DNA from: Bacteroidota bacterium
GTDB lineage: Bacteria; Bacteroidota; Bacteroidia; Bacteroidales; NBLH01
Assembly (NCBI GenBank): GCA_025361565.1
Contig: JANYKN010000007.1
Coordinates: 1-64,000, forward strand
Direction of reading: 5' to 3'
DNA length: 64,000 bases
The notes beneath the pieces are model-generated. The model searched no databases. It had not been told where the DNA came from and saw only the letters and a list, made by a program, of their open reading frames with translations. Positions 34,877 to 48,166 of this stretch are shown here, one piece after another. Each line of letters starts with the position of its first letter. Within the stretch, counting starts at the first letter, position 1. A program made the position numbers and the translations under genes.

Positions 34877-35209
34877 ATGGACAAGGCAGAACTACCTAAA
34901 ATAAAAATCCTACTGGAAGCGATCAATAAAATATTTGATTTCACCAAGGGAATGAAAAGTGTGGAAGATTTGACTTCCAATATCATGGCTTGGGATGCCG
35001 TTAAAATGAACCTTGTTGTTATTTACGAAACAGATTTAAAAATTGATCCTGACTTTAAAAAGAAATACAACAAGGTGGATTGGGACCAAATAAAAGACAA
35101 TAAACCGATTTTGGAAAGTACTTATTTGGGTTTTGATAGCGACGAAATTTGGAAAGCCATTCAAAATAAAATGCCACAGTTTAAAAAGCAAATTGAAGAA
35201 ATACTTTAG
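34877..35209 (+). CDS. HepT-like (DUF86) protein with degenerate RNase motif
   Basis: 110 residues, all-alpha. The arrangement MNLVVIYETDLKIDPDF, KKKYNKVDWDQIKDN, and STYLGFDSDEIWKAIQNKMPQFKKQIEEIL matches the HepT/DUF86 fold, the partner of MNT nucleotidyltransferases. In HepT toxins the motif RX4-6HXY lies in the block aligned with DNKPILEST here: the Arg is D74 and the His is L79 or E80. It therefore should not act as an RNase or AMPylation target in the classical way. No MNT gene lies nearby; it probably is cotranscribed with aspS. Confidence 0.65.
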   Translation: MDKAELPKIKILLEAINKIFDFTKGMKSVEDLTSNIMAWDAVKMNLVVIYETDLKIDPDFKKKYNKVDWDQIKDNKPILESTYLGFDSDEIWKAIQNKMPQFKKQIEEIL

Positions 35210-35272
35210 AAGAAGTCGAGTGAGAATATAAGATAATTTCAATTATCCGCAATTCTCAATTTTTATTATATT

Positions 35273-35309
35273 AATAGTCGAGAGTAAGAAACCTGTCGAC
35301 TATTTTTTT
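35273..35309 (+). terminator. Terminator of the aspS / HepT-like unit
   Basis: AATAGTCGA (35273-35281) pairs perfectly with TCGACTATT (35296-35304) with a 14-base loop and runs into TTTTT. Confidence 0.8.
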
Positions 35310-35576
35310 ATCTATTTAATTCACATTCCTTAAAAACCCTATTTTTTCTGAGTCCTTTACTGATATTAAAAAAATTCCTATTTGGTTTGCATTTTAGCCT
35401 GTTGATGAAATCAAAGTTGCATGCTTGTATAAGTATGAATTATACATGAATATCTTCGTAATTTTATAAAATTAATCCATAAAAGTTTAATTTTCAATAT
35501 ATTAATCTTCATTTTATCTTGCTTGACTAATCATTAATCTTGAAAATGAATCTAAATACCAAAAATTACTTTCTAT

Positions 35577-35629
35577 TTTGTTAAATAGTAATATATTTAT
35601 ATATTTGAATTCTATCAATCTGGTAGAAT
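35577..35629 (+). promoter_or_regulatory. Promoter and overlapping operator of the Rrf2-type regulator
   Basis: TTTG (35577-35580), exactly 19 bases, then TATATTTG (35600-35607) is a consensus promoter. Directly after it, ATTCTA (35609-35614) and TAGAAT (35624-35629) form an inverted repeat with a nine-base spacer that covers the expected start of transcription. This position is what one expects for autorepression by the Rrf2 protein encoded next. Confidence 0.65.
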
Positions 35630-35642
35630 AACTGGTAAAAGT

Positions 35643-36050
35643 ATGAAACTTAACACCAAAGTACGTTATGGTTTAAGGGCAGTTACCCAAATTGCCTCAT
35701 CTACCGAGGTATTGTTACAAAAAGAAATTGCTGAAAAGCAGAAAATACCACTGAAATATCTCGACACTATAATAACTGGCTTAAGAGCCAAAGGATTGAT
35801 TAAAAATTTTAAGGGAAAAAAAAGTGGCTATGTATTGGCCAAACCACCTTCTGAAATAACAATTTATGATGTATATCGCGCATTTGAACCTGAAATAGCG
35901 ATAGTTGATTGTTTGTGTGAGCCAAATACCTGCCAAATAACAGAAAATTGCGAAGTGAAAGATTTTTGGGCAAATATCAACTCACAGTTTCGTCAGGCTT
36001 TATCAAATAACACGATAAAAGATATTTTGGATAAAAATATTAACATATAA
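35643..36050 (+). CDS. Rrf2-family transcriptional regulator with cysteine cluster
   Basis: 135 residues, the normal size. A winged helix (LNTKVRYGLRAVTQIA to KSGYVLAKPPSEITIYDVYRAFE) precedes a Cys-rich loop with C90, C92, C97 and C103, like the IscR/NsrR/RsrR [Fe-S] ligand region. It likely senses iron-sulfur status, nitric oxide or redox state. No isc or suf genes are adjacent; the nearest sequence change is its own promoter with a palindrome. The target regulon is unknown. Confidence 0.88.
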   Translation: MKLNTKVRYGLRAVTQIASSTEVLLQKEIAEKQKIPLKYLDTIITGLRAKGLIKNFKGKKSGYVLAKPPSEITIYDVYRAFEPEIAIVDCLCEPNTCQITENCEVKDFWANINSQFRQALSNNTIKDILDKNINI

Positions 36051-36096
36051 AACATTCATTGTCAGATATTTAAAACTAATTTAAAATAAAAGACTG

Positions 36097-37167
36097 ATGA
36101 AAACAAAAGAAGATTTTGATTTGTATTACGAGAGAGAGCTGATGCCTGTAATTCAGTCACTTGAGGAACGAAGGCTTGCTATTCTGAAAAAATTTTCCTA
36201 TAAGCTTTACCGCAGAACACTTTTATCCTTATTGCTGGTAATTATAACTCTGGCAATCTGTAACGGTGTAATCCCTGACTTTCCGGAATCGGTTTTAGCA
36301 TTAACTGTTTTATCTACTGTATTGTTTGCTGTTTTTTATCCACTATACATTTTTATAAGGCGAAATTTATCTTCTGAGCCTATCAATGCTGATTATAAAA
36401 AGAATGTTATCACAAAAATTATTTTTTTCATTGATGAACAGTTGAATTATATTCCGGGTTCCGGAATTGATTTAAATGAATTCAGAAAAAACCTCATTCA
36501 TTCAGAAAAGATTTTTTTAAAAAGTTTTCAATCCGAAGATCTGGTTTCAGGCAAATTAAATGGGTATAATATAAAATTTTCGGATGTTAAAATTTCATAC
36601 AGGGTTGGACCGAGGATCAAAGGCAGAAATGATGGTTCACTTTTGGACTGTGTTTATGTTATTGTAAAATCGGACTATATTTATACCTCTCAAACCAATC
36701 TTTATCATGTTCATTTTCTATTGGCACCAATTAAAATGATTAGTGATGCAGTGGGAGCAGTTAAAAAGACTGTGCTTTCACCGGTGGTAGAATTATCGAA
36801 CAGTATAATTGGCGAGTCAATTACAAAAAATTTGTTTGGCCATTTTAATGATAATGCATACCTGACACAAAATACCGTTTTTGACAATACATTTGGTATT
36901 TGGTCTGATAAGCACGAAGAAACAAAAAAAATACTTTCGGATCATTTTCAAAACGAATTATTGAATTTAATTCGAAGTTCCAATATGCAAGTCAATATAG
37001 GCTTTTGCAACAACGAAATCCATCTGGCAGTTTTAAATTCCGATCTTTTTGAGACAGATGTTCATGTTTCATTGCTAAACTCATCTCATAGAATTTCAAC
37101 TGCCCGGTATTATGATATTATTGGCAACATTTATAAACTGTTGGAAATTATTAAAATTTCAAGATAA
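36097..37167 (+). CDS. DUF3137 family membrane protein
   Basis: 356 residues. Two transmembrane helices lie near residues 38-56 (TLLSLLLVIITLAICNGVI) and 63-85 (LALTVLSTVLFAVFYPLYIFI). The rest is a cytoplasmic domain. YERELMPVIQSLEERRLAILKK and the later FSEEDLVSG-like, GRNDG and KILSDHFQNELLNLI blocks match proteins annotated DUF3137. Function is unknown. Confidence 0.75.
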   Translation: MKTKEDFDLYYERELMPVIQSLEERRLAILKKFSYKLYRRTLLSLLLVIITLAICNGVIPDFPESVLALTVLSTVLFAVFYPLYIFIRRNLSSEPINADYKKNVITKIIFFIDEQLNYIPGSGIDLNEFRKNLIHSEKIFLKSFQSEDLVSGKLNGYNIKFSDVKISYRVGPRIKGRNDGSLLDCVYVIVKSDYIYTSQTNLYHVHFLLAPIKMISDAVGAVKKTVLSPVVELSNSIIGESITKNLFGHFNDNAYLTQNTVFDNTFGIWSDKHEETKKILSDHFQNELLNLIRSSNMQVNIGFCNNEIHLAVLNSDLFETDVHVSLLNSSHRISTARYYDIIGNIYKLLEIIKISR

Positions 37168-37255
37168 GACTGAGTAAAACAAAAACAAAATTATTGATGA
37201 TATAAAATATGATTTTTCGTTTGCCTAAATTATTAAAAACTTGATACCTTAACTT

Positions 37256-39178
37256 ATGAAAAAACTAGCTAGTTTATTTATTTTCTTGCTGTTAACAGCA
37301 AATTTATTTGCACAAACCAAGCCAGACAAAACCTTCGACCACGAAAAATTTGGAAAGAAAGTATATGGTAATTTCTCCGCTGGTATGGATCAAAGCATTT
37401 TCCTGCCCGATGACAATGCCTTGGAATACATTAGTTCTAAATCTGGAAGGTCAATAGACGATTTAAAAGCTGAAAGGGAATTGAACAAGCAATATCTTAG
37501 CGACGACAGGGGTGCGTTGCAGAAAGAAAACGCAGGTGGCCTGATGGTTTTGAAAGTTGAACTGGTAAAAGTAGATAACCCAAAACTCACAATGGGCAAT
37601 ATCATTATAACCGCCCAAAACAAAATAATTGAATTGAGAAATTGTATCCAAACCGATAGAACCTGGGTTCTTGGCGATTATATGGGTATACAGGGGCAGC
37701 AGCCAAATAGAGGAAAAACTGTTGCAAAAGAAGAGAATAACAATAATGGAAATACTGAAAATGTAAGCACAGAAAATATAATTTTAAGCAGTGCAAATGC
37801 GCCATATCATGGAAATTTAAATTTTAATAAAGAGCTGATTGGACAGGTGTTAAAGGGCTGCTATGTTACAACAGATGGAAGTATAATTAATGCAGCAATT
37901 TTGTACGATATTCCCGGTAATCTGCAAAACAATTCGGTTGAGCTCTCCATATTTAAAAAAGCAGTTGGTGAACAAGGCTTCACAAAAGAGAATAGTAATT
38001 TTGATAAGAAACTATCAAAAAATGGATTAAGGGCTTTTTTTGTGGCTGATCATTTGTATATAAAAGCAGGTGACTACTGGTATATGTTGATTGAAGAAGC
38101 CGCTATCAGTAGGTTATCACAAATTGGTACAACTACGCTTTCCAATATTCCTGCCAATGTTGAAAAAGCAGATTTAGTAGGCAAACCGGTCAGAGGTTAT
38201 TATATTGATAATGCAGGGAATAAGGTTGAAGCCGTAATTAAATATCAGAATGCTATACAGCTACAGGATATGGCTTCAACATTTTTGTTATACAATGTTG
38301 CCTACAATGAAAGTGGCTTTACTGCAGATGAAACCAATAATTTCAAAACTTTTTTAGCCAAAAGCCTGGTTAAAGAGTTTAATCTCGCAGGCAATACTTA
38401 TTATAAAGTGTTAAGTGCTACAAATAAGGGAGGAGCTGAATGGAAAGTAAAAGTTGATGAAGTAAGTTATTCAACTTTAAAATATATTTATAAAACAGGA
38501 GAAAATCCATTGGAAGAAAGTTCGCTTACACTGGGTTTTAAAAATACCATGAGTAAATTAACTGCTGATAATTTAGCACTTTCAACTAAAATTGCAAATA
38601 AGGAAAAGGGATACAATTATCTTAATCTTGAAAAAATCATTAAGGAATATAATCCCTGGTATGAGAAACAATATCCTGGCAAATTTAAGTATGTTTTGGC
38701 TGATACAAAGAATGTTACTGGAGGATCAAAAAATATAGAAACGGGTTCGACTGCAGAATTGGAAACTTTTGGAAGGGCTTTGTTGGAAGCCTTAAAATCA
38801 GATACACCTGATAAATTGTTGGCACTTAGCTATACAAGTAAGGAATTGATAAATACAGTTAATGCAAAAACGAAGGATGAAAAAATGAAAAATTCTTTTG
38901 TTAAAGATCTTCAGGTAAAAGACCCAAACAACGAAAAAATACAAAAGGAAATTATAGAACAATTTAAGAGAATTAAAGAATCTAAGCTGTATTGGAAAGG
39001 GGCTGAATATTTTAGTTTTAAATTTGAGAAACTAGGAATATCAGAAACCATAAATTTTGATTGGGGAACCGCTGTCTTACAATTTGAATCGGAAGAAAGG
39101 CATTATAAAATAAAAATAGGCGATTTTACACATTTACTTACTGGCTGGAAAGGAATCGGTTATAGATTCGAAGAATAG
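37256..39178 (+). CDS. Secreted protein of unknown function
   Basis: 640 residues. A clean signal peptide (KKLASLFIFLLLTANLFAQ) precedes a largely hydrophilic protein. Two similar segments exist: GNLNFNKELIGQVLKGCYVTTDGSIINAAILYD and KADLVGKPVRGYYIDNAGNKVEAVIKYQ, so an internal duplication of a beta-rich unit of roughly 120 residues is likely. The C-terminal 110 residues form a separate domain (TAELETFGRALLEALKSDTPDKLLALSYTSKELI). No family recognised. It and the next gene face the same way. Confidence 0.65.
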   Translation: MKKLASLFIFLLLTANLFAQTKPDKTFDHEKFGKKVYGNFSAGMDQSIFLPDDNALEYISSKSGRSIDDLKAERELNKQYLSDDRGALQKENAGGLMVLKVELVKVDNPKLTMGNIIITAQNKIIELRNCIQTDRTWVLGDYMGIQGQQPNRGKTVAKEENNNNGNTENVSTENIILSSANAPYHGNLNFNKELIGQVLKGCYVTTDGSIINAAILYDIPGNLQNNSVELSIFKKAVGEQGFTKENSNFDKKLSKNGLRAFFVADHLYIKAGDYWYMLIEEAAISRLSQIGTTTLSNIPANVEKADLVGKPVRGYYIDNAGNKVEAVIKYQNAIQLQDMASTFLLYNVAYNESGFTADETNNFKTFLAKSLVKEFNLAGNTYYKVLSATNKGGAEWKVKVDEVSYSTLKYIYKTGENPLEESSLTLGFKNTMSKLTADNLALSTKIANKEKGYNYLNLEKIIKEYNPWYEKQYPGKFKYVLADTKNVTGGSKNIETGSTAELETFGRALLEALKSDTPDKLLALSYTSKELINTVNAKTKDEKMKNSFVKDLQVKDPNNEKIQKEIIEQFKRIKESKLYWKGAEYFSFKFEKLGISETINFDWGTAVLQFESEERHYKIKIGDFTHLLTGWKGIGYRFEE

Positions 39179-39219
39179 ATAGACTGAACTATATACTCTT
39201 TAAATGAATATATTGGCAG

Positions 39220-39321
39220 ATGAAAAGTTAAATGCTCGAAAGATTCCGACATGAATGGTGGATCTATCGAATTTGAAGTGGATGGAACTGGCGTAATGGT
39301 AAAGGAATTTTATGGTGAATA
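39220..39321 (+). other. Short open frame, possible gene remnant
   Basis: A 33-codon frame in the gap between two secreted-protein genes encodes KVKCSKDSDMNGGSIEF and ends EFYGE. It has the composition of a folded Gly/Val/Glu-rich fragment rather than random AT-rich sequence, but it lacks an obvious initiation signal. It may be the remains of a third paralogous secreted gene or a small protein. Confidence 0.25.
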
Positions 39322-39411
39322 AAACATACGTAATTGAAGTTTAACACAAAGAAACCAAAATTGTTTGTGATTATGCAATTTGTAAAAGTGAAAAACAAAT
39401 AAACAAGACCT

Positions 39412-40824
39412 ATGAAAAAAACATTAATCACCTTTATTTTCAGTACAATAACATTTTTTGCTTATACCCAAACAGCTAAAGAAGTTGTAGAAAATTTTAT
39501 TACTTCCATAGGTAAAAAGGATTTTAAATCAGCCTATGCATTACAAAATATCCCAGCCTGGGGAAGCCTTGAAAAATTCAGCTCTGTAAAAGCCTTTGGC
39601 GCTATTTATAAAACAGAAATAATTTCCATTGAACAGAAACCTGATGATAAAGGAAATTCAGTCGTTTTTGCAGATGCTGTATATTACGACAGCATTAACG
39701 GCAGCAAACAATTTGAAGAAAACTTTTATTTGAGTAAATCTACTGGAAAATTGAAAATTGTAAAATTAAAGGTGTTGAAAACCCAGAACCCGATGTTGAA
39801 AAAAATAACGGATGAGGATTTTAAAGCTTATGTGGCAAGTTATAAGGAAACAAATTTTCCGGTAGATTTGGCTAAATCTATTAGAACGGAAGGGGCACCC
39901 GAAATACCGGAACAATACATCAAAAAATATATTGATAAGGATTATATTGCAAGCACTGGTGAAGTTCCTGGCCGAGGTAAGTATTTTTATTCCGGCGCTT
40001 TATTTACTAATCAATACATAGCTGTTCTATACTGGAACGCTTGCGAAATGTGCGATGGTACAAATAGTGAGTATCAAATTTTAAATCTGAATACTTACAC
40101 TTACTCTGGCATTCCAATATCAAAATTTGAAGTTGGCACAAATTCAAGTGCTGTTGGAGCACCCAATAAAGGCGGCACAATAAGAAATAATTATAAAATG
40201 AGTGGTAAAATTTATTCAAACAGTATCAGTAAAGTTTTACTTAAACATTATGAAGAAGAAATATTTAAGGAATCCTCCAAGGGTAAAACATTTCAAATTC
40301 AACCAAATGGTCAGGTTATAGAAAATCCAGATATTAAAATGACCAATTTCCCAATTGACTTTATCAAAAAAGCTTCTATCGACAGAAAACTGCATTATCA
40401 ATTCTCCACCATTGAATTAGGTAAGTTAAAATTTATCGATGCTGCTTTTTTTACAAAATGGTTACACAACATTCGGGCAAACACAAGCATAGGTGACGAA
40501 AGTCTTGAATGGAATGAAAGAGGATCTTATCAATTTTTCGACTTTAAGGAGCTCAACGACAAGATAATGTTTTCAATCATTTCAACAGATGAATCATCCT
40601 ATAATACCATAATTCATTACACATTCGATAAAGTGAATGGAAAGATTGTTCAGGTTTTTAAAAGTGGAATAACAGAAAATGATGCCCCCGGACACCATAC
40701 CTCATTAGATTACAACAAAGCAGGCGACATTTTAAAACAATCTGTCATTTCGAGTAAAAATGATACAATTGTTATAGAAAAATTTGAATTTAACATACAA
40801 ACCACTAAATATTCAAAAAATTGA
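39412..40824 (+). CDS. Secreted protein of unknown function with NTF2-like N-terminal half
   Basis: 470 residues with a signal peptide ending near FAYTQ. Residues 22-130 (TAKEVVENFITSIGKKDFKSAYALQ, later GKLKIVKLKVL) resemble SnoaL/DUF4878-type accessory domains that follow lipoprotein leaders. The remainder is beta-rich with repeated aromatic/asparagine pairs and no identified motif. A CxMC pair (CEMCDG) occurs near residue 206. It converges with the TonB receptor gene, only 11 bases away. Confidence 0.6.
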   Translation: MKKTLITFIFSTITFFAYTQTAKEVVENFITSIGKKDFKSAYALQNIPAWGSLEKFSSVKAFGAIYKTEIISIEQKPDDKGNSVVFADAVYYDSINGSKQFEENFYLSKSTGKLKIVKLKVLKTQNPMLKKITDEDFKAYVASYKETNFPVDLAKSIRTEGAPEIPEQYIKKYIDKDYIASTGEVPGRGKYFYSGALFTNQYIAVLYWNACEMCDGTNSEYQILNLNTYTYSGIPISKFEVGTNSSAVGAPNKGGTIRNNYKMSGKIYSNSISKVLLKHYEEEIFKESSKGKTFQIQPNGQVIENPDIKMTNFPIDFIKKASIDRKLHYQFSTIELGKLKFIDAAFFTKWLHNIRANTSIGDESLEWNERGSYQFFDFKELNDKIMFSIISTDESSYNTIIHYTFDKVNGKIVQVFKSGITENDAPGHHTSLDYNKAGDILKQSVISSKNDTIVIEKFEFNIQTTKYSKN

Positions 40825-40835
40825 TCCTTCAATTG

Positions 40836-43346
40836 TTATAAATTCAATTTCAAAAAAATAGTCGGTGTAAAAGGAATTGCCTCAAAATATATATTTACTG
40901 AACCGGTTTGAGATATCGGGATTTTTTCAAAATTTGAAATTTTTTGATTTCTTGTATTTAAAACATTGAGAATTGAGATGCCACATTCACCTATATTCCT
41001 TGTTTTAGAAAACTGATAAGTCGCTGAAACATCTAATCTGCTGTATGGTATCCTATTAGAATTATTCTTTTGTCGAAATGGCTTTTCCAGAAATCCTGAA
41101 CCAAACACATAATTTGCCGAAAGAAATATCGGTTTCAAATTAATGATGGAAGCTAATTTAATTTCGTGCCTTTGATCTTGTGGCGCATATAAATATTCCT
41201 CGTTTTTGAAGTATGAAAAATGCTCCAATGATTTGCTATAGGTGTACGAAAGCCAAATGGTGTGCTTACTGAGATTGTATTTTGCATAAAAATCGAATCC
41301 GTAGCTTTTGCCATTTCCTTTGTAAATATCTTCTTTGATCAAGAGAGGAATTTTAACATATCTGGTAAGTCCGTTTGTGTTTTTATAAAACGCATCTATA
41401 TTTATAGAAAGATCTTTATAGCTATATGAAAATCCAGCAACCAAATGGTTTGCTTGTAAAATTGGGATATTTTCATTGTTTGAAATGGTCCAAAAGTATC
41501 TATAGTTATCATATTCATCTAATATTGAACTTTTTACTAAAAATTGATTGTAAATTCCCCACGCCAAATTATATTTGAATTTGGTGTTAATCGATTGCGA
41601 ATATGAAATTCTCGGTTCAATAAAAACCTGATTCACATAAGGAAGATAACTCGCCCTGAATCCCAAATCCAAATTTTTGCCAGAAAAACTGATGATGTCC
41701 TTTAAACCAAAAGTATAATAAGAACTGCTGTTTTTTGATTCTGAAATAGTTATTTTGGAACTATCTTCTTTTGATTTTGAAGTATTGTTCAAAGCTTGCA
41801 AGGTAAATTCAAAAGTTTGATTTTTATTGGTTCTATAAACGGTCTGGAACTTAGCTTTTGTTTCGAAAATTTCATTATTTGTGAACGATTTTTTTTGATT
41901 TACCAGTTTTTTTGTAAGTGAGCTAAAAATGTCGTAATTATCAGTTAAATCTGTTGATAATTCTGAATATGAAATTGTTAAGCTGGAGCTTATTTTATTG
42001 TTCATTTTTTTCTCAAAAAATACAGAAGCGCCCGTTTGATGGTTTTCTTCATTTGTAGTTTTTATAATTTCCCTATATTGTAAGGTTTTGTTAAACGAAT
42101 ATTCAAATTTATCGTTACTGTTAAGAACACTCACATAGAATAAGTTATCGTTGGTTTTTAAGGTATATTTGATATTGAAATCACGGAAAGTATAATCCGG
42201 GTAAACATAAATATCTGAAAGATTAGAATTTCTGGCCGAATCAGCTTTTGGAAACAACTTAAAACCATCATTGTAAAGATTGTAGTATGTTTGCCTATAA
42301 GCAATCTGCAAAGATGATTTTTTCAAAATTGGAATTTCCAGTAAGCTGTTGAGCGTAAAATTGTTAATTCCAATACTGAAATGAGTTTTTTGCGTGTTTC
42401 CATCTTTTCCCGAAATATCTACAATTCCACCCACACAATCGCCATACGAGGCATCATAGCCCGCTTTTTTGAGTTGAATGTTTTTTGTAATCAATGGATT
42501 GATGGCACTAATATTATCGTTGAAATTTTTAAGGCCAAAAACAGTAAAACCATCGAAAAGTATCCGGCTTTGACCAGCATAGCTGCCCCAGATAATGATA
42601 TCATTGGCTTGCTCGCCCGAAGCTAGCACTCCAGGCTGAAGCCGAAGTAAATTGAATACCGAATTGTCGCTACTTCCAGGCAGGTATTTGGTAACTTTAT
42701 GATTAAGCTTAATAGTTGCTGGTTCGTTTCCTGTATTTGAGAAATTTTCAATCAGATTTTCGCTGACTTTGACCTCCGTAATAATCTGATCAGAAGGAGT
42801 TAAATAAATATTAATGTTTTGATTGCCAGCATAAACTATGGTATCTTCAATCAAATAACCCATATTTGAAATTTTGATATTGAAAATACTGTCTTTGGTT
42901 GAGCTGTAGAGGAAATTTCCATTTTGGTCGCTCATCATGCCAAATGAATTAACTGCGATAAAAGAATAAGGAAGGACTTCATTTGTTTTAAACTCCATTA
43001 TTCTGCCTGAAATGGAATAAACTTTGGGTTTTTCTTTTTCAATTACAATTTCACTTTTTTGGGGATAAATAATATAAACTCCCGAAATTTTTTCGTATCC
43101 AAAGGGCAGATCTTTAATCAAATAATCCAATGCTTTTTCAATATTTTTGAATGATTTTGAGACCGTAATCTTGTATTTCGAAAGTTCGGTATCATCAAAT
43201 GAAAATTCCACATCGTATTTATCTCTAATTTCTATTAATACCTGGCTTAGAGCTTTATTGGATGTATTAATTTTAATTTCCTGAGCATTTGTGCTTAATT
43301 CGAAAATTATTCCGATTAAGATGATTAACAGGTATTTAATTTTCAA
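40836..43346 (-). CDS. TonB-dependent receptor with STN signalling domain
   Basis: 836 residues if translation begins at TTG 43346, seven bases after the FecR stop. That start gives a normal signal peptide (KIKYLLIILIGIIFELSTNA), whereas the longer frame to 43421 overlaps the anti-sigma gene. Order: signal peptide, STN domain (about 25-95, IKINTSNKALSQVLIEIRDKY), a carboxypeptidase regulatory-like domain (about 110-195), plug (TGNEPATIKLNHKVT onwards) and a 22-strand barrel ending SVNIYFEAIPFTPTIFLKLNL. The STN domain should contact the FecR-type anti-sigma across the periplasm. No SusD follows. Confidence 0.88.
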   Translation of the reverse strand: MKIKYLLIILIGIIFELSTNAQEIKINTSNKALSQVLIEIRDKYDVEFSFDDTELSKYKITVSKSFKNIEKALDYLIKDLPFGYEKISGVYIIYPQKSEIVIEKEKPKVYSISGRIMEFKTNEVLPYSFIAVNSFGMMSDQNGNFLYSSTKDSIFNIKISNMGYLIEDTIVYAGNQNINIYLTPSDQIITEVKVSENLIENFSNTGNEPATIKLNHKVTKYLPGSSDNSVFNLLRLQPGVLASGEQANDIIIWGSYAGQSRILFDGFTVFGLKNFNDNISAINPLITKNIQLKKAGYDASYGDCVGGIVDISGKDGNTQKTHFSIGINNFTLNSLLEIPILKKSSLQIAYRQTYYNLYNDGFKLFPKADSARNSNLSDIYVYPDYTFRDFNIKYTLKTNDNLFYVSVLNSNDKFEYSFNKTLQYREIIKTTNEENHQTGASVFFEKKMNNKISSSLTISYSELSTDLTDNYDIFSSLTKKLVNQKKSFTNNEIFETKAKFQTVYRTNKNQTFEFTLQALNNTSKSKEDSSKITISESKNSSSYYTFGLKDIISFSGKNLDLGFRASYLPYVNQVFIEPRISYSQSINTKFKYNLAWGIYNQFLVKSSILDEYDNYRYFWTISNNENIPILQANHLVAGFSYSYKDLSINIDAFYKNTNGLTRYVKIPLLIKEDIYKGNGKSYGFDFYAKYNLSKHTIWLSYTYSKSLEHFSYFKNEEYLYAPQDQRHEIKLASIINLKPIFLSANYVFGSGFLEKPFRQKNNSNRIPYSRLDVSATYQFSKTRNIGECGISILNVLNTRNQKISNFEKIPISQTGSVNIYFEAIPFTPTIFLKLNL

Positions 43347-43353
43347 TTTGAGT

Positions 43354-44208
43354 TCACTTTTGTTCCACAATAAAATTTTTGTCCGAAACTTTGACACATT
43401 TAACACCGAAAGGTTTACCAATAATATTTATAATTTCTTCGGGCGAACTTCCTCTTTTAATATTACATGTAGAATTTCCTTTTAGATTTTCTTTGCCTGA
43501 AATCACTATATCAAACTGTCTTTCAATCTCTTCATAAACCACCTTTAATGGTAAAGCTGTAAAAATAAACTCATTGTTTATCCAGGCAATCGCATTTTGG
43601 TTGATGGTTTCATCCTGCAACTTTACAAGTCTATTTTCTTGATTAACAACAGTATAGTCGTTTTTCATGAGGATTGTAGATTTATTCATTTTTGTTTCAA
43701 CCTTTACTTTTCCCGATAGACAATATACTCTGTATTCATCATTCCTGGAGTAAATATTAAATTTTGTTCCCAATACTGTTGTAGATGCTTTTTCGGAAAT
43801 TACTTCAAACTTTTTCCCTTTTTGGACTTCAAAAAATGCTTCGCCGCTAAAATCCAATTTTCGGCTAAATTGCCACCAATAAGGATTGTAAGAAAGGTTT
43901 GAGTTTGCATTTAAAGTAACTTTTGAACCGTCGGGCAAAGCAACAATACTGTGCTGACCATTTGGGCAGTATATATCAATTGAATAATATCTTAAAAATG
44001 ACAACAATCCCAAACCTACAATTAAAACAGCAGCTACGCCATATTTAAGAAATTGAATAAAATTAACTTTTAATACGTTATCTTTATGGTTCTCAGTCAG
44101 TTTCGATTCCATCTCCAACCATACTTCTTCTTTACTCTTAGAGTATTGAATTTTCGCTTTTTTGAAGAATTCCTTTTCAAAATCCATATGGTCATTGTCT
44201 TGATTCAT
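43354..44208 (-). CDS. FecR-type anti-sigma factor
   Basis: 284 residues. A cytoplasmic N-terminal sigma-binding domain (1-48) is followed by a transmembrane helix (GVAAVLIVGLGLLSFL, about 53-70). The periplasmic FecR domain runs about 92-190 (VALPDGSKVTLNANSNLSY, FSGEAFFEVQKG). The C-terminal DUF4974-like domain covers about 215-284 (FTALPLKVVYEEIERQFDI). It would hold the ECF sigma factor inactive until the receptor signals. It lies 32 bases after the sigma gene. Confidence 0.92.
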   Translation of the reverse strand: MNQDNDHMDFEKEFFKKAKIQYSKSKEEVWLEMESKLTENHKDNVLKVNFIQFLKYGVAAVLIVGLGLLSFLRYYSIDIYCPNGQHSIVALPDGSKVTLNANSNLSYNPYWWQFSRKLDFSGEAFFEVQKGKKFEVISEKASTTVLGTKFNIYSRNDEYRVYCLSGKVKVETKMNKSTILMKNDYTVVNQENRLVKLQDETINQNAIAWINNEFIFTALPLKVVYEEIERQFDIVISGKENLKGNSTCNIKRGSSPEEIINIIGKPFGVKCVKVSDKNFIVEQK

Positions 44209-44240
44209 TCTCTATTTACAGTAATAGTAATGTGAAAATA

Positions 44241-44765
44241 TTAATTTAAAAAGAGCAGTATAATAATCATTTTCACTATAAACTCTATCATTTCCTCTTT
44301 AAAAAAAGCAATTGCCAAACTCATTCTTTTTTCAACGGCTTTGATGCTTAGATTTAAACGCTCTGCAATTTCGCTGTATTTAAGTTCATCATTTCTGCTC
44401 ATTAAAAATACAATCCTTTGTTTTTCAGGTAATTCCGAAATTGCTTTTTCGTATTTCTTTTGCATTTCAATGAACTGAAATTCATCTTCGGGCGAATAAT
44501 CAAGTTGATTTGAGCTCAACGATTTTTGGAACTTAATTTCAATTTGTTGTCTTCGATACTTGGTTATCAGAATATTCCCTGAAATTTTATATAACAAACC
44601 AATAGCATTGTCATGAGATTTTAATAATTGTTTTTCCCAAATGAGCATAAAAGCCTCTTGTGCAATGTCGGTAGCCAATTCTTCGTTTCCAATTCTATAG
44701 TAAACATAGTTACGAATGGTATCGAAGTGCTGTTCAAACAGGATTTTGAAGCTTTCTTTTGTCAA
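44241..44765 (-). CDS. ECF sigma factor
   Basis: 174 residues. Sigma region 2 is FDTIRNYVYYRIGNEELATDIAQEAFMLIWEKQ; region 4 is AISELPEKQRIVFLMSRNDELKYSEIAERLNLSIKAVEKRMSLAI. This is the FecI-like group of Bacteroidota. The start must be TTG at 44765, since no ATG lies in frame upstream and the next M is too far in. The C-terminus (FIVKMIIILLFLN) is unusually hydrophobic for a sigma factor. It heads a sigma / anti-sigma / receptor operon. Confidence 0.93.
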   Translation of the reverse strand: MTKESFKILFEQHFDTIRNYVYYRIGNEELATDIAQEAFMLIWEKQLLKSHDNAIGLLYKISGNILITKYRRQQIEIKFQKSLSSNQLDYSPEDEFQFIEMQKKYEKAISELPEKQRIVFLMSRNDELKYSEIAERLNLSIKAVEKRMSLAIAFFKEEMIEFIVKMIIILLFLN

Positions 44766-44814
44766 TTTTAAAACTATTTTAAACCGTATAAAAATACTAA
44801 AGTTTTGTTTTAAC

Positions 44815-44851
44815 TTTTCACCCTTCCAGAAAAAACATGGAAGAGTGAAAA
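44815..44851 (-). terminator. Strand-selective hairpin between lipoprotein and sigma genes
   Basis: A 14-base stem joins TTTTCACCCTTCCA (44815-44828) to TGGAAGAGTGAAAA (44838-44851). On the plus strand it contains one C.A mismatch, but on the minus strand the same position is a G.U wobble, so the minus transcript folds better. It lies after the lipoprotein gene and before the sigma gene. Confidence 0.65.
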
Positions 44852-44871
44852 ATAATCTAATTGATATTTAA

Positions 44872-45753
44872 TTAATTGTTCAATATTCTGTGTCTTCGGC
44901 CTAAAGTAATTTGTCTCTCTATGCCATTTTTTGTAATCGTTGCAATATCATCGCAAGTTCCATCGCCATAGTTCAATTCTGCAAAATCTGCCCCATTTTT
45001 CGACATGGTTACAATTCCCTGTACAATAAACCTGCAATCACCTTTTCTGATAAGTGGTTCCTGAATTAAATTTGAAAAAGTATAACCTTCGGAACTTACA
45101 GAATTTGTAAATCCTGTTATGCTGAAAATATCGTCCGAATAATCACCAGGAGTGTCCAGACCGGCAACAATCTCCCTTATTTTTTCAGTTTCTCTTGTAA
45201 TATATGTTCCATCGGGGAAAGTAATTACGATAGAACCTACAACTTTATTAACTATATTGCCCACTTCGTTCAAACTGAAAGTCATTGTTCTTGTACCTGC
45301 AATATTAACTGAATCAATATAGAAATCATTAAAAGTTACTGTACGAACTGCTCCATCTGTACGCGGCTGAGCTGAAACAGTAATAAAGATTGATCCACTA
45401 ATAGTTGTACCATTCGATAGTTCGATACCCTTACCATAGTTAAGTGTAATCGTTTTAGGAAATCCACCATCAGTTGTAGTGATAATTACTTCCGGAGGAA
45501 TACCGAACCGATATCTGCCTCCAAAAAGTACTTCACTGCTGCTTTTTTGAACACTACTTGCTAAATTGATACTTTCATTGCTTCCGGTGAATAATTCAAC
45601 TTCATAGTCTGTTGATTCTGTAGCCACTTCGGCTGCAGCATCATTTGAAATAATTGCTTCATCTTCGTTACTGACCATTCCTGCTTGTTCTTTGTTGCAT
45701 GAGAACAAAAAAATTGTGGCTAATACTACCAAACTTAAAAATAGATTTTTCAT
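44872..45753 (-). CDS. Lipoprotein of unknown function upstream of the sigma cassette
   Basis: 293 residues. Lipobox LFSC with C19 after KNLFLSLVVLATIF. The mature part is acidic at first, then beta-rich with many Thr/Gly/Val residues and a repeated pattern of the type TITLNYGKG, GSIVITFPDG and AELNYGDG, suggesting a beta-sandwich in which related strands are reused. No catalytic motif is seen. It precedes the sigma/FecR/receptor genes in the same direction, but a hairpin separates it. Confidence 0.65.
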   Translation of the reverse strand: MKNLFLSLVVLATIFLFSCNKEQAGMVSNEDEAIISNDAAAEVATESTDYEVELFTGSNESINLASSVQKSSSEVLFGGRYRFGIPPEVIITTTDGGFPKTITLNYGKGIELSNGTTISGSIFITVSAQPRTDGAVRTVTFNDFYIDSVNIAGTRTMTFSLNEVGNIVNKVVGSIVITFPDGTYITRETEKIREIVAGLDTPGDYSDDIFSITGFTNSVSSEGYTFSNLIQEPLIRKGDCRFIVQGIVTMSKNGADFAELNYGDGTCDDIATITKNGIERQITLGRRHRILNN

Positions 45754-46076
45754 GATTTTAGAATTTAAATGTTTATAAATATTTGCTTTTACATACTAAC
45801 CGAATAAACATTAATCTACCCTACTTTTTTTTGAAAAAAAATTGATTTTCCTTGCTCTTGTTAAAATAATGGTTGATAATGAAAAGAAAATATAATTTTT
45901 CACCCAATTTTTATGATCTTGAATTCAATATTTTCTATTTTCGTCTATTGGAAATAATTCAAGTTTGGGTTAATTCAAAGCTTCTAGTAAATTTTCGTTT
46001 AAAAGCATATAATGAATTGCTTTATTCATCAGACTTAATTAAACAATAAGTAAAAGGTATAACAACATTTAAAAAC
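45754..46076. other. Divergent intergenic region
   Basis: No gene. It separates the lipoprotein and the ion channel-like gene and must hold both promoters. TATTTTCG, a near match to TAnnTTTG, is visible on the plus strand near 45948; no reliable -33 partner was found. Very AT-rich, no strong hairpin. Confidence 0.4.
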
Positions 46077-47177
46077 ATGGTAACTAAAAATATGCGCCCT
46101 CATAAGAATACTTGTATTTTTTCTATTTTAACAAAACAATTCTTCCAAGTAAAAATAAAAACATTTATTCTCATAATATCCTTAATTTCATTGCATTATA
46201 ATGCAAATGCGTATTCTCCAAAATCGCCTATATTGGTGAAGTATGGTATTTATGTTAAAAAAATTACAGTCGATTTCCAGAACGCAAAGTTTCACGCAGA
46301 ATTTTATTGGTGGGCGCTGTTTAATAATGACTCCACCATTACTGATTATAGCAATGATGATATTTTAAACTTTGAATATGCAAATGGGATAAATTGTGAA
46401 ATTGGTGGCGTGAAGCATGAAATTCAGCTGGTTAAAGATTTAGGAAATAATAATTTCTATTATACAGGTTTACATCAGGGAGATTTTTACTTTTCCCCTA
46501 ATTTTAAGATGTACCCATTTGATAAACAAAAATTAGATATTATTATTGAAAACTCTTTAATTCCAGAAGAAGAATTGGTTTTTATTATAGATTCCACATC
46601 CTACATAAAATCAAATCAGGATAAAAACTTTTGGGGTTTATCAAATGATGTGCTGTCCAACAATACTCAAGAGAGTTATAAGATATTTAAAACGGGAATA
46701 ATTGTCGGAAATAGTATATATAACAGCAATTTTGGTGATATTAGCCTACCTTACAAATCATTTTATGGACGAATAACTACTTCTATTTTTATAGATCGGT
46801 CATTTTTACCTTATATTGGCAAACTTCTAATACCACTTATCATTATTCTTTTTCTGGTTTATTTTGTTTTTTACCTCCCTACTCATAAAATTGAAATGTC
46901 GGCAAGCCTCACAGTTTCCGCACTTTTTTGTGCTACGGCATTTCAGCTGGCAATCAGCCATTCTTTACCCGATATAGGTTATATCATCTATGTGGATAAA
47001 ATTTTCTACAGCTGTTACGCACTTATTGCTCTGTCGCTTACCCAATCACTTATCACCTACTATCTTGATTCATCCGGAGATGAGGATAAGAAAAGAAAGG
47101 CACATAAGCTTGATGTTATATTCAGGTATATTTTCCCCTTTCTGTTTATTGCTGCGGTAATTCTATTTGCACTTTAA
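46077..47177 (+). CDS. Pentameric ligand-gated ion channel homologue
   Basis: 366 residues. A basic N-terminus and hydrophobic signal-like segment (about 28-45, end NANA) lead to an extracellular beta-domain of about 195 residues. Residues 146-153, YPFDKQKL, match the family signature (F/Y)PFDxQxL where animal receptors have the Cys loop. Four transmembrane helices follow: TM1 about 243-267 with conserved P253, TM2 about 273-292, TM3 about 306-330, TM4 about 347-366. The TM2-TM3 loop SLPDIGYIIYVDKIF keeps the LP-x-Y-x-x-D pattern. There is no cysteine pair, as in bacterial GLIC and ELIC. The ligand and ion selectivity are not readable. Confidence 0.8.
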   Translation: MVTKNMRPHKNTCIFSILTKQFFQVKIKTFILIISLISLHYNANAYSPKSPILVKYGIYVKKITVDFQNAKFHAEFYWWALFNNDSTITDYSNDDILNFEYANGINCEIGGVKHEIQLVKDLGNNNFYYTGLHQGDFYFSPNFKMYPFDKQKLDIIIENSLIPEEELVFIIDSTSYIKSNQDKNFWGLSNDVLSNNTQESYKIFKTGIIVGNSIYNSNFGDISLPYKSFYGRITTSIFIDRSFLPYIGKLLIPLIIILFLVYFVFYLPTHKIEMSASLTVSALFCATAFQLAISHSLPDIGYIIYVDKIFYSCYALIALSLTQSLITYYLDSSGDEDKKRKAHKLDVIFRYIFPFLFIAAVILFAL

Positions 47178-47200
47178 AAAAAGTTTGTGAATTGAATAAA

Positions 47201-48166
47201 TTAAAAATAATTCTTATCCGATAAATAATTCTTAACATAATCTTTAACACCTGCTTCAAGTGAGTGAAATTCTTTGGTATATCCGATTTTTCTTAGCTTT
47301 TCCATTTTTGCTTCAGTAAAGTATTGATATTTGTCTCTAATATCGGCTGGAGTATCAATAAAACTTATGTTTTCGCTAATGTTCATGGCTTTAAAAGTGC
47401 TTTTTACCAAATCCAAAAATGTACGGGCTTTTCCTGTTCCCAAATTGTAAATCCCTGAATCTTTGCGGTGATGCATCAGAAAGTATAAAACTTCAATCAC
47501 ATCTTTTACGTATACAAAATCGCGGATTTGCTCACCATCCTTATATTCAGGATTATGCGATTTAAAAAGCTTCATTGCACCTGTTGATTTAATTTGATTA
47601 AAAGCATGGAAAATAACTGAAGCCATTCGTGCTTTGTGGAATTCATTTGGCCCATAAACATTGAAAAACTTGAGGCCTGCCCAAAAATATGGTTTTTCCA
47701 CTTGCTTCAAAGCCCATTTGTCGAAATCATTTTTTGAGTCCCCATAAGGATTTAATGGTTTTAGCTTTTCTATCACTTCGTGGTTATCATCATAACCAAA
47801 TTCGCCCAAACCGTAAGTTGCAGCCGATGATGCATAAACCAAAGGAAGTCCATATTTAAAGCATGCTTTCCACATTTGCTTGGTATAACCGATGTTTAGT
47901 TTGTCAAAAATAGAAACATCAAATTCAGTGGTATCGGTTCGAGCACCGATATGAAAAATGAACTGGACCAATTTGTTGTTTTCGTCCAGCCAAGGGAAAA
48001 ATTCGTTCCTATCAACTTTGGCAGTGATTTTTTTACCAACCAGGTTTTTATTCTTTTCAGGATTTGAAAAATCATCAACAACTACAATATCTTCAAAACC
48101 TTCTTTGTTTAGTTTGCTTACCAAACAACTACCTATAAAGCCAGCGGCACCGGTTACTATTATCAT
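47201..48166 (-). CDS. hldD: ADP-glyceromanno-heptose 6-epimerase
   Basis: 321 residues, short-chain dehydrogenase fold. The NADP-binding motif is GAAGFIGSCL at the N-terminus; the catalytic tyrosine and lysine lie in PLNPYGDSKNDFDKWAL. KFFNVYGPNEFHKARMASV and GEQIRDFVYVKDV are typical of HldD. It converts ADP-D-glycero- to ADP-L-glycero-mannoheptose for the LPS core. A perfect -7 box (TATCTTTG on minus, 48191-48198) lies upstream. Confidence 0.93.
   Translation of the reverse strand: MIIVTGAAGFIGSCLVSKLNKEGFEDIVVVDDFSNPEKNKNLVGKKITAKVDRNEFFPWLDENNKLVQFIFHIGARTDTTEFDVSIFDKLNIGYTKQMWKACFKYGLPLVYASSAATYGLGEFGYDDNHEVIEKLKPLNPYGDSKNDFDKWALKQVEKPYFWAGLKFFNVYGPNEFHKARMASVIFHAFNQIKSTGAMKLFKSHNPEYKDGEQIRDFVYVKDVIEVLYFLMHHRKDSGIYNLGTGKARTFLDLVKSTFKAMNISENISFIDTPADIRDKYQYFTEAKMEKLRKIGYTKEFHSLEAGVKDYVKNYLSDKNYF

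Follow-up and report, generated by a model that had tools for sequence, protein, structure and literature searches.

The window analyzed here, the whole stretch of 64,000 nucleotides from a Bacteroidota genome, contains at 46077..47177 on the + strand a complete open reading frame (ATG to TAA, with the start as called by the ORF tool) that encodes a 366-amino-acid subunit of a pentameric ligand-gated ion channel (pLGIC), as identified by profile, PDB and fold matches. On the opposite strand of this interval, the one frame translated contains stops throughout, and no reverse open reading frame of at least 90 amino acids is present. On the 5' side lies a divergent gene (44872..45753, - strand, an ORF call), the product of which is lipoprotein-like by eye and matched no Pfam or NCBIfam model. 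Beyond it, as seen from the channel, an ECF sigma factor, a FecR-like protein and a TonB-dependent receptor with a FecR_C-like N-terminus were located at 40836-44765 by profile matches. The 3' neighbour is the convergent gene hldD, encoding ADP-glyceromanno-heptose 6-epimerase (47201..48166, - strand; TIGR02197, 381.2 bits against a cut-off of 274.6), and between the 44872-45753 gene and hldD the channel is the only gene on the + strand. An earlier note on this DNA had named an envelope-signalling cassette and LPS synthesis as the only neighbours; both are present, on the 5' and 3' sides respectively, but they are not the sole neighbours, because the family-less 44872-45753 gene lies between the cassette and the channel. 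ECF sigma/FecR/TonB-receptor cassettes are common in Bacteroidota, and the one at 40836-44765 is an ordinary nutrient-signalling cassette of this phylum.

A fixed link of the channel to the sigma/FecR/TonB cassette or to hldD was considered and did not gain support: similar genes were found in few of 79 relative loci (a set in which two contigs are counted twice, as L038/L045 and L002/L003) and in none of the close subfamily described below. These gene families are common, and a tie of the channel to outer-membrane nutrient signalling or to LPS genes is possible. Individual loci do contain such genes: a whole sigma/FecR/TonB set lies about 1 kb from its channel in L058:2520-6964, TonB-type receptors lie 97 and 296 bases from a channel match in L060:8986-11841 and L072:9110-11827, respectively, a relative of the 44872-45753 product lies about 4 kb from the channel in L053 and in L038, and L037 has a single weak epimerase match at a distance of 6.7 kb from its channel. 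None of the four congener hldD loci examined has the channel beside hldD. In the congener G297 (L122), hldD adjoins a homologue of window 34877-35209, which means that window 35210-47200 (about 12 kb, with the cassette and the channel) is absent from that place. The base composition of the channel gene is close to that of its neighbours (GC content 31%, against 33% for the window) and thus gives no signal of recent foreign acquisition. Carriage by phages was also rejected (47 pattern stretches in IMG/VR, none confirmed, and nothing matched among 50,697 phage records), as was carriage by plasmids, for which five records were matched, all from Azospirillum and at about 24-25% identity.

The identity of the product as a bacterial pLGIC homologue, proposed in the earlier note, is borne out by both profile and fold: the Pfam model Neur_chan_memb exceeds its gathering score, and the predicted structure is a beta-sandwich plus four helices, which is the pLGIC fold. 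Of the two channel domains that the note had suggested for the profile search, Neur_chan_memb was matched at 28.9 bits against a cut-off of 28.1 (E = 1.7e-6), a margin of 0.8 bits, whereas Neur_chan_LBD gave no match to the window protein at E <= 10. Neur_chan_memb is below its cut-off in two close relatives (22.2 bits in L094 and 19.6 bits in L095), and in alignment A5, which has 29 members, Neur_chan_LBD is matched by 16, all of them relatives, at a loose E <= 1 (best 5.5e-5). The NCBIfam models LGIC_1 (E = 2.8e-13) and TIGR00860 (E = 3.1e-11) were also matched, both far under their strict cut-offs. Among PDB sequences, the best matches were a Cys-loop/proton-gated chimaera, GluCl and GLIC, with E values of 7e-10 to 5e-9 (best 7.2e-10), and the best match improved to 1.6e-15 when the subfamily profile was used.

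An AlphaFold2 single-chain model calculated from 29 aligned sequences had a pLDDT of 86.9 and a pTM of 0.75. Foldseek returned 883 PDB matches at E <= 1e-3, the best 50 of which are all pLGICs or pLGIC chimaeras, GLIC included. In VIA-align, the model matched GluCl, GABA-A receptors and ELIC3 at Z scores of 21-23, with a Z of 22.9 to GluCl (3rhw; 288 residues, 3.4 A) and of 21.4 to ELIC3 (8d67). The structural match to solved pLGICs spans residues 47-366. Among the matches listed, identity to solved structures is 14-19%; this low value and the silence of the LBD model are what would be expected if the product were a four-helix membrane protein of another family with a chance likeness to pLGICs. 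That explanation is refuted by fold and profile, since independent sequence and structural evidence agree, and its probability is negligible. On these computations, the gene product has the pLGIC fold and is a member of the pLGIC superfamily with near certainty.

The organization of the protein follows the model and the alignments. An N-terminal helix in the model (residues 15-44; 46119..46208, + strand, as for all features below) is a probable signal peptide. It is followed by a putative periplasmic ligand-binding beta-sandwich (residues 52-241; 46230..46799), the strands of which run from 52-66 to 228-241 and which is supported by fold matches. The YPFDKQKL signature reported earlier is present as the Pro-loop at residues 146-153 (46512..46535), a Cys-loop without cysteines in which P147 and D149 are invariant in 29 aligned rows. 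A longer loop before beta9, which by position is the loop F region (residues 173-200; 46593..46676), carries the sequence GLSND and was delimited from the subfamily alignment. The conserved motif YNSNFGD at residues 215-221 (46719..46739) corresponds to loop C, with a putative role in the binding site; all 16 rows compared here conform to the pattern Y-x-[ST]-x-[FY]-G. The C-terminal four-helix region, likewise anticipated in the earlier note together with its TM1 proline, consists of M1 (residues 244-265, with P253; 46806..46871) and the pore helix M2 (269-294, with E273 and F284; 46881..46958), both defined from the model and alignment, and of M3 (300-332; 46974..47072) and M4 (336-365; 47082..47171), defined from the model. 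The M2-M3 loop LPDIGYIIYVD (297-307; 46965..46997), with P298, G301, Y302 and D307 invariant, contains the LP, Y and D that had been noted, but at a spacing of LP-xxx-Y-xxxx-D and not LP-x-Y-x-x-D.

In addition to these positions, W79, N103, F137, E158, Y215, G220, R241, K249, P253 and L283 are invariant in the 29 rows (the window protein included), and F219 is nearly so. The hallmarks of pLGICs are therefore kept, namely the Pro and Asp of the Pro-loop (P147 and D149), the pre-M1 arginine R241, the M1 proline P253 and the M2-M3 proline P298. E273 aligns with a GLIC glutamate near the start of M2, and Asp or Glu occupies this position in all seven full-length subfamily members. We take the GLIC residue to be the -2' selectivity residue, in which case F284 is at 9'; the 9' residue is Phe in the window protein and Leu in the other six full-length members. 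In cation-selective pLGICs, the cytoplasmic end of M2 bears a ring of acidic residues (-2'/-1'), and E273 thus suggests that the window channel would be selective for cations.

The channel is the sole match in its own genome assembly (6.76 Mb, 199 contigs, 97.99% complete). At E <= 1e-5, and with the window's genome counted each time, the order yielded relatives in four genomes out of 295 and the phylum in 23 out of 395. None was found in six congeners (completeness 59-99%), and among seven genomes of the genus or family, only the window's own has the channel. The earlier description of such receptors as sparse in bacteria agrees with these counts. The window protein belongs to a close subfamily of nine loci (the window, L005, L029, L030, L031, L032, L033, L094 and L095, with L033, which is also L006, counted once), the members of which are 44-59% identical to it. 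In this subfamily, the loop before beta9 is 12-14 residues longer than in all nine rows from other branches, and it contains G-[LIF]-S-x-D in six of the seven full-length rows, with L095 deviating; a shorter insertion is also present after beta2. With subfamily profiles at E <= 1e-30 or 1e-40, one of four genomes was matched in the order of G298 (G298 itself), one of 396 in the order of G689 (again itself) and three of 395 in the class of the window (its own genome and two more). When a GTDB-based genome collection was scanned with a single peptide pattern, 48 loci were matched, five of which are close (L029-L033). The window channel is therefore a member of a rare and divergent pLGIC subfamily with an extra loop before beta9. 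Two of the nine loci contain broken channel genes: that in L031 (L031:1202-3455) is split across two frames, with an integrase-core (rve) transposase gene directly upstream, and approximately the C-terminal half is left in L033 (L033:7938-8492).

Five of the nine subfamily loci (L029, L030, L032, L033 and L094) have a membrane acyltransferase (AT) gene that is on the strand of the channel gene and overlaps it. The overlap is a 4-base ATGA in L030 and L094 and one base in L032, and the gene order is reversed in L029. In a sixth subfamily genome, that of L031, the AT is located elsewhere, adjoining a CorA gene. The AT at L116:3833-5866 (G690), which does not adjoin a channel, lies 33 bases downstream of a CorA metal-ion transporter gene on the same strand. 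The AT profile matched six of the nine subfamily genomes and found no AT in those of the window, G298 and G1195, which are listed as 98-99% complete. An AT beside the window channel was searched for and not found; the sole HGSNAT_cat gene found in the window's genome sits on another contig and is NagX-like (NF046061, E = 8.5e-61, below the cut-off). The window channel is an orphan copy without an AT partner and, as its own genome yielded no AT, the linkage gives no direct information on it.

The search was also made in the other direction, starting from the AT profile at E <= 1e-30. Of 395 genomes from the class, seven contain the AT, and a pLGIC gene adjoins it in four of these (G1397, G1209, G1119 and G1200). 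The profile, A4, has five of its seven rows from channel loci, and its row from G1397 is also one of the seven matched genomes; when G1397 is left out, the adjacency is found in three of six genomes and two of four genera, G1209 and G1119 being from one genus. In the other three genomes (G1248, G1261 and G1168), the 11-12 kb examined around the AT yielded no pLGIC. The pLGICs of G1209, G1119 and G1200 are 26-28% identical to that of the window over 207-299 residues, give weak to moderate Pfam matches (L113 is over the LBD cut-off, and L110 and L112 are below theirs) and form a separate branch of the channel tree with a support of 100/100. In a control, the AT profile at E <= 0.1 matched nothing in the flanks of 43 other pLGIC loci (L034-L076), which extend to 8 kb or less at contig ends; the flanks of most other relative loci were 1.5 kb. 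All eight adjacent channel-AT pairs are on one strand, with the channel first in six and the AT first in two; by mechanical ORF calls, six overlap by 1-76 bases and two have gaps of 3 and 56 bases.

The linkage could be passive, the two genes for membrane proteins having merely stayed together in a few lineages with no functional coupling. Such an origin would fit the patchy distribution, in which the AT was not found in three of the nine subfamily genomes and three of the seven ATs from the reverse search are apart from any pLGIC. The AT label is also scattered on the channel tree (which, like the other channel trees, excludes the broken L031 and L033): it requires six changes, a number reached or undercut in 175 of 500 shuffles. 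As it is not clustered beyond the shuffles, the linkage was either gained and lost repeatedly or is old and was often lost. However, the pairs are on the same strand and mostly overlapping, they occur in both gene orders and they are found in two distant pLGIC branches. Furthermore, for a single AT gene the chance of adjacency is estimated at about 4e-5 to 1.3e-4, with assumed values of 0.06-0.2 pLGICs per genome and 3000 genes, and that of two adjacent genera out of four at about 1e-8 to 1e-7, with G1397 left out and the genera taken as independent. Passive linkage is thus unlikely. CASTOR/POLLUX-type channel genes were also observed near a channel-AT pair, in L094:970-2886 (G1397) and L032:11793-13742 (Castor_Poll_mid, E = 5e-28 and 1e-20, respectively); in L094, five bases separate this gene from the pLGIC gene.

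By its sequence profile, the partner belongs to the HGSNAT/AT3 (TmAT) superfamily of membrane acyltransferases: HGSNAT_cat is over its Pfam cut-off in all 13 ATs and Acyl_transf_3 in 10 of the 13. The TmAT motif DxxRx10[N/H], described in the part of PMC12423673 drawn on here as part of the conserved acyl-CoA site of the superfamily, is kept as DxxRx10N in all 12 ATs that hold this region. The catalytic pair of HGSNAT and NagX is a His-Asp dyad, according to the section of PMC11199644 used here. In the ATs, the Asp column of this dyad is Ser in 13 of 13, and seven of the 13 have a histidine one alignment column away from the NagX His while the other six have none, for which reason an assignment to HGSNAT or NagX proper was rejected; for the two ATs compared with NCBIfam, no match was found at E <= 0.01. 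GWT1, an acylating TmAT protein, likewise does not have that His, by the same portion of PMC12423673. Catalysis by the ATs is plausible from the sequence, and it is unproven because Ser replaces the dyad Asp and the His is off-column or missing. A model of the AT from four aligned rows, made to look for the 10-helix TmAT fold, was of low confidence (pLDDT 61.6); its best nine Foldseek rows are HGSNAT, of which the three best alone are at E below 1e-3, and one of the nine, 8jkv, is identified as HGSNAT in the text consulted from PMC12423673.

The reading that we favour, at a probability of roughly 60%, is that the window protein is a ligand-gated cation channel, which a small molecule in the periplasm would open. 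The pentameric state, the location, the ligand site and the cation selectivity are all inferred. The gene product would form one subunit of a homopentameric pLGIC in the inner membrane, with the N-terminus directing export of the beta-sandwich into the periplasm. A small ligand would bind between subunits near loop C (Y215 and F219) and the conserved W79, N103 and E158. The contact of the Pro-loop with the pre-M1 segment (D149 and R241), together with the M2-M3 loop, may then relay the movement to the M2 helices, opening to cations a pore whose positions would be occupied by the acidic ring (-2'), Ser (2' and 6'), Phe (9'), Ala (13') and Leu (16').

Two other accounts of the window gene were weighed against this reading. 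In the first, the channel is gated by protons or modulated by ions, as GLIC and DeCLIC are, with no organic ligand, and the AT of the relatives only remodels envelope glycans or lipids, whose state would affect the channel at most indirectly. The proton-gated GLIC is among the closest solved sequences, and TmAT proteins move acyl groups to extracytosolic acceptors, often glycans, as stated in the passages of PMC12423673 drawn on here. Against this, loop C (16 of 16 rows) and W79, N103 and E158 (29 rows) are conserved as a small-molecule site would be, a pattern still compatible with protons or calcium, and we consider gating of this kind doubtful while taking it seriously. In the second, the window gene is an orphan that has lost its partner and is decaying or no longer functional, as might be suspected from the missing AT, from the absence of the channel in all six congeners and from the broken genes of L031 and L033. 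However, its reading frame is intact, it retains the gating residues that the aligned relatives have in common, the predicted fold is good and the composition is near that of the neighbours, making decay improbable.

Within the favoured reading, the AT of the relatives may acylate a small molecule in the periplasm, or a sugar of the envelope, and thereby make, alter or remove the ligand of the channel. This proposal, drawn from gene linkage, is doubtful at present. The organism of the window would have lost its AT partner or never had one, and its channel, having no partner, may respond to a ligand from the environment. Primary amines open ELIC, according to the part of PMC3119659 cited here, and by analogy acylation of such amines would be expected to change their activity on a channel. 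In its fullest form, which we hold to be rather unlikely, the proposal is that of a receptor and enzyme module in Bacteroidota: a nicotinic-type channel would be co-encoded with a transmembrane AT that passes an acyl group from cytosolic CoA to a periplasmic amine or amino-sugar ligand, making or silencing an agonist, and the window channel, having lost the enzyme, would sense ligand made by others. If true, the module would formally resemble a neurotransmitter receptor together with the enzyme that sets the transmitter level. The ligands of bacterial pLGICs can then be sought with a concrete hypothesis, since a recurrent partner of partly known chemistry points to small molecules open to acylation on the periplasmic side, and the AT pairing in related bacteria is a hint at the role of these channels. 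The receptor-enzyme idea is within reach of two genes and standard electrophysiology.

The window protein shares with GLIC and ELIC/ELIC3 the fold, the topology, the Cys-less Pro-loop and the M1 and M2-M3 prolines, and with GLIC also the aligned Glu at the cytoplasmic end of M2. The GLIC chains are 18-19% identical to it among the Foldseek matches listed. It differs from GLIC in two extra residues just before the M2 Glu, and from both GLIC and ELIC in the longer subfamily loop before beta9 and the Phe at 9'. DeCLIC is a prokaryotic pLGIC with an additional N-terminal domain, as described in the parts of PMC12664993 and PMC9897478 used here, whereas the window protein consists of the core module only. 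GluCl, GABA-A and glycine receptors provide the top Foldseek and VIA rows for the model, and M1-M2 of GluCl aligns with the window protein without gaps, with a Glu in the latter where GluCl has a Pro before M2; unlike these receptors, the window protein has no Cys-loop cysteines, has a short M3-M4 link and is encoded by a single bacterial gene. The ATs of the relatives resemble HGSNAT, NagX and AT3 proteins in their HGSNAT_cat and Acyl_transf_3 domains, the DxxRx10N motif and the HGSNAT rows found with the low-confidence model, and differ from NagX proper in the Ser at the dyad Asp and, in six of 13, the missing His.

The presence of pLGICs in this phylum has been in print since 2004 (PMC549065, in the portion cited here). 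Tasneem et al. 2004 describe there Bacteroidota pLGICs with PBP, Cache or MCP-N fusions or operons, and the three pLGICs of Cytophaga hutchinsonii are by that description of the same phylum and superfamily as that of the window. The word 'acyltransferase' does not occur in the text of PMC549065. Among the matches listed in a literature search, from which most subscription journals were outside the scope, no paper was found that brings the terms pLGIC and Bacteroidota together nor, as far as can be inferred, one that combines pLGICs with acyltransferase and operon. As far as was searched, the divergent subfamily with its longer loop and the recurrent TmAT partner are new, and the new part lies in the relatives and not in the window gene alone. 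Two further gene arrangements were observed. In L095:6191-9462 (G1195), the pLGIC gene lies between two BBP2 outer-membrane porin genes, five bases after the first, and the porin is possibly a different partner where the acyltransferase is absent. In L004:61-1962 (G275, from the same order as the window), a pLGIC is fused behind a domain that by eye resembles a Cache-type sensor, in a 748-amino-acid open frame; as a new architecture this fusion was set aside, Cache-fused pLGICs being among those already described in the cited portion of PMC549065.
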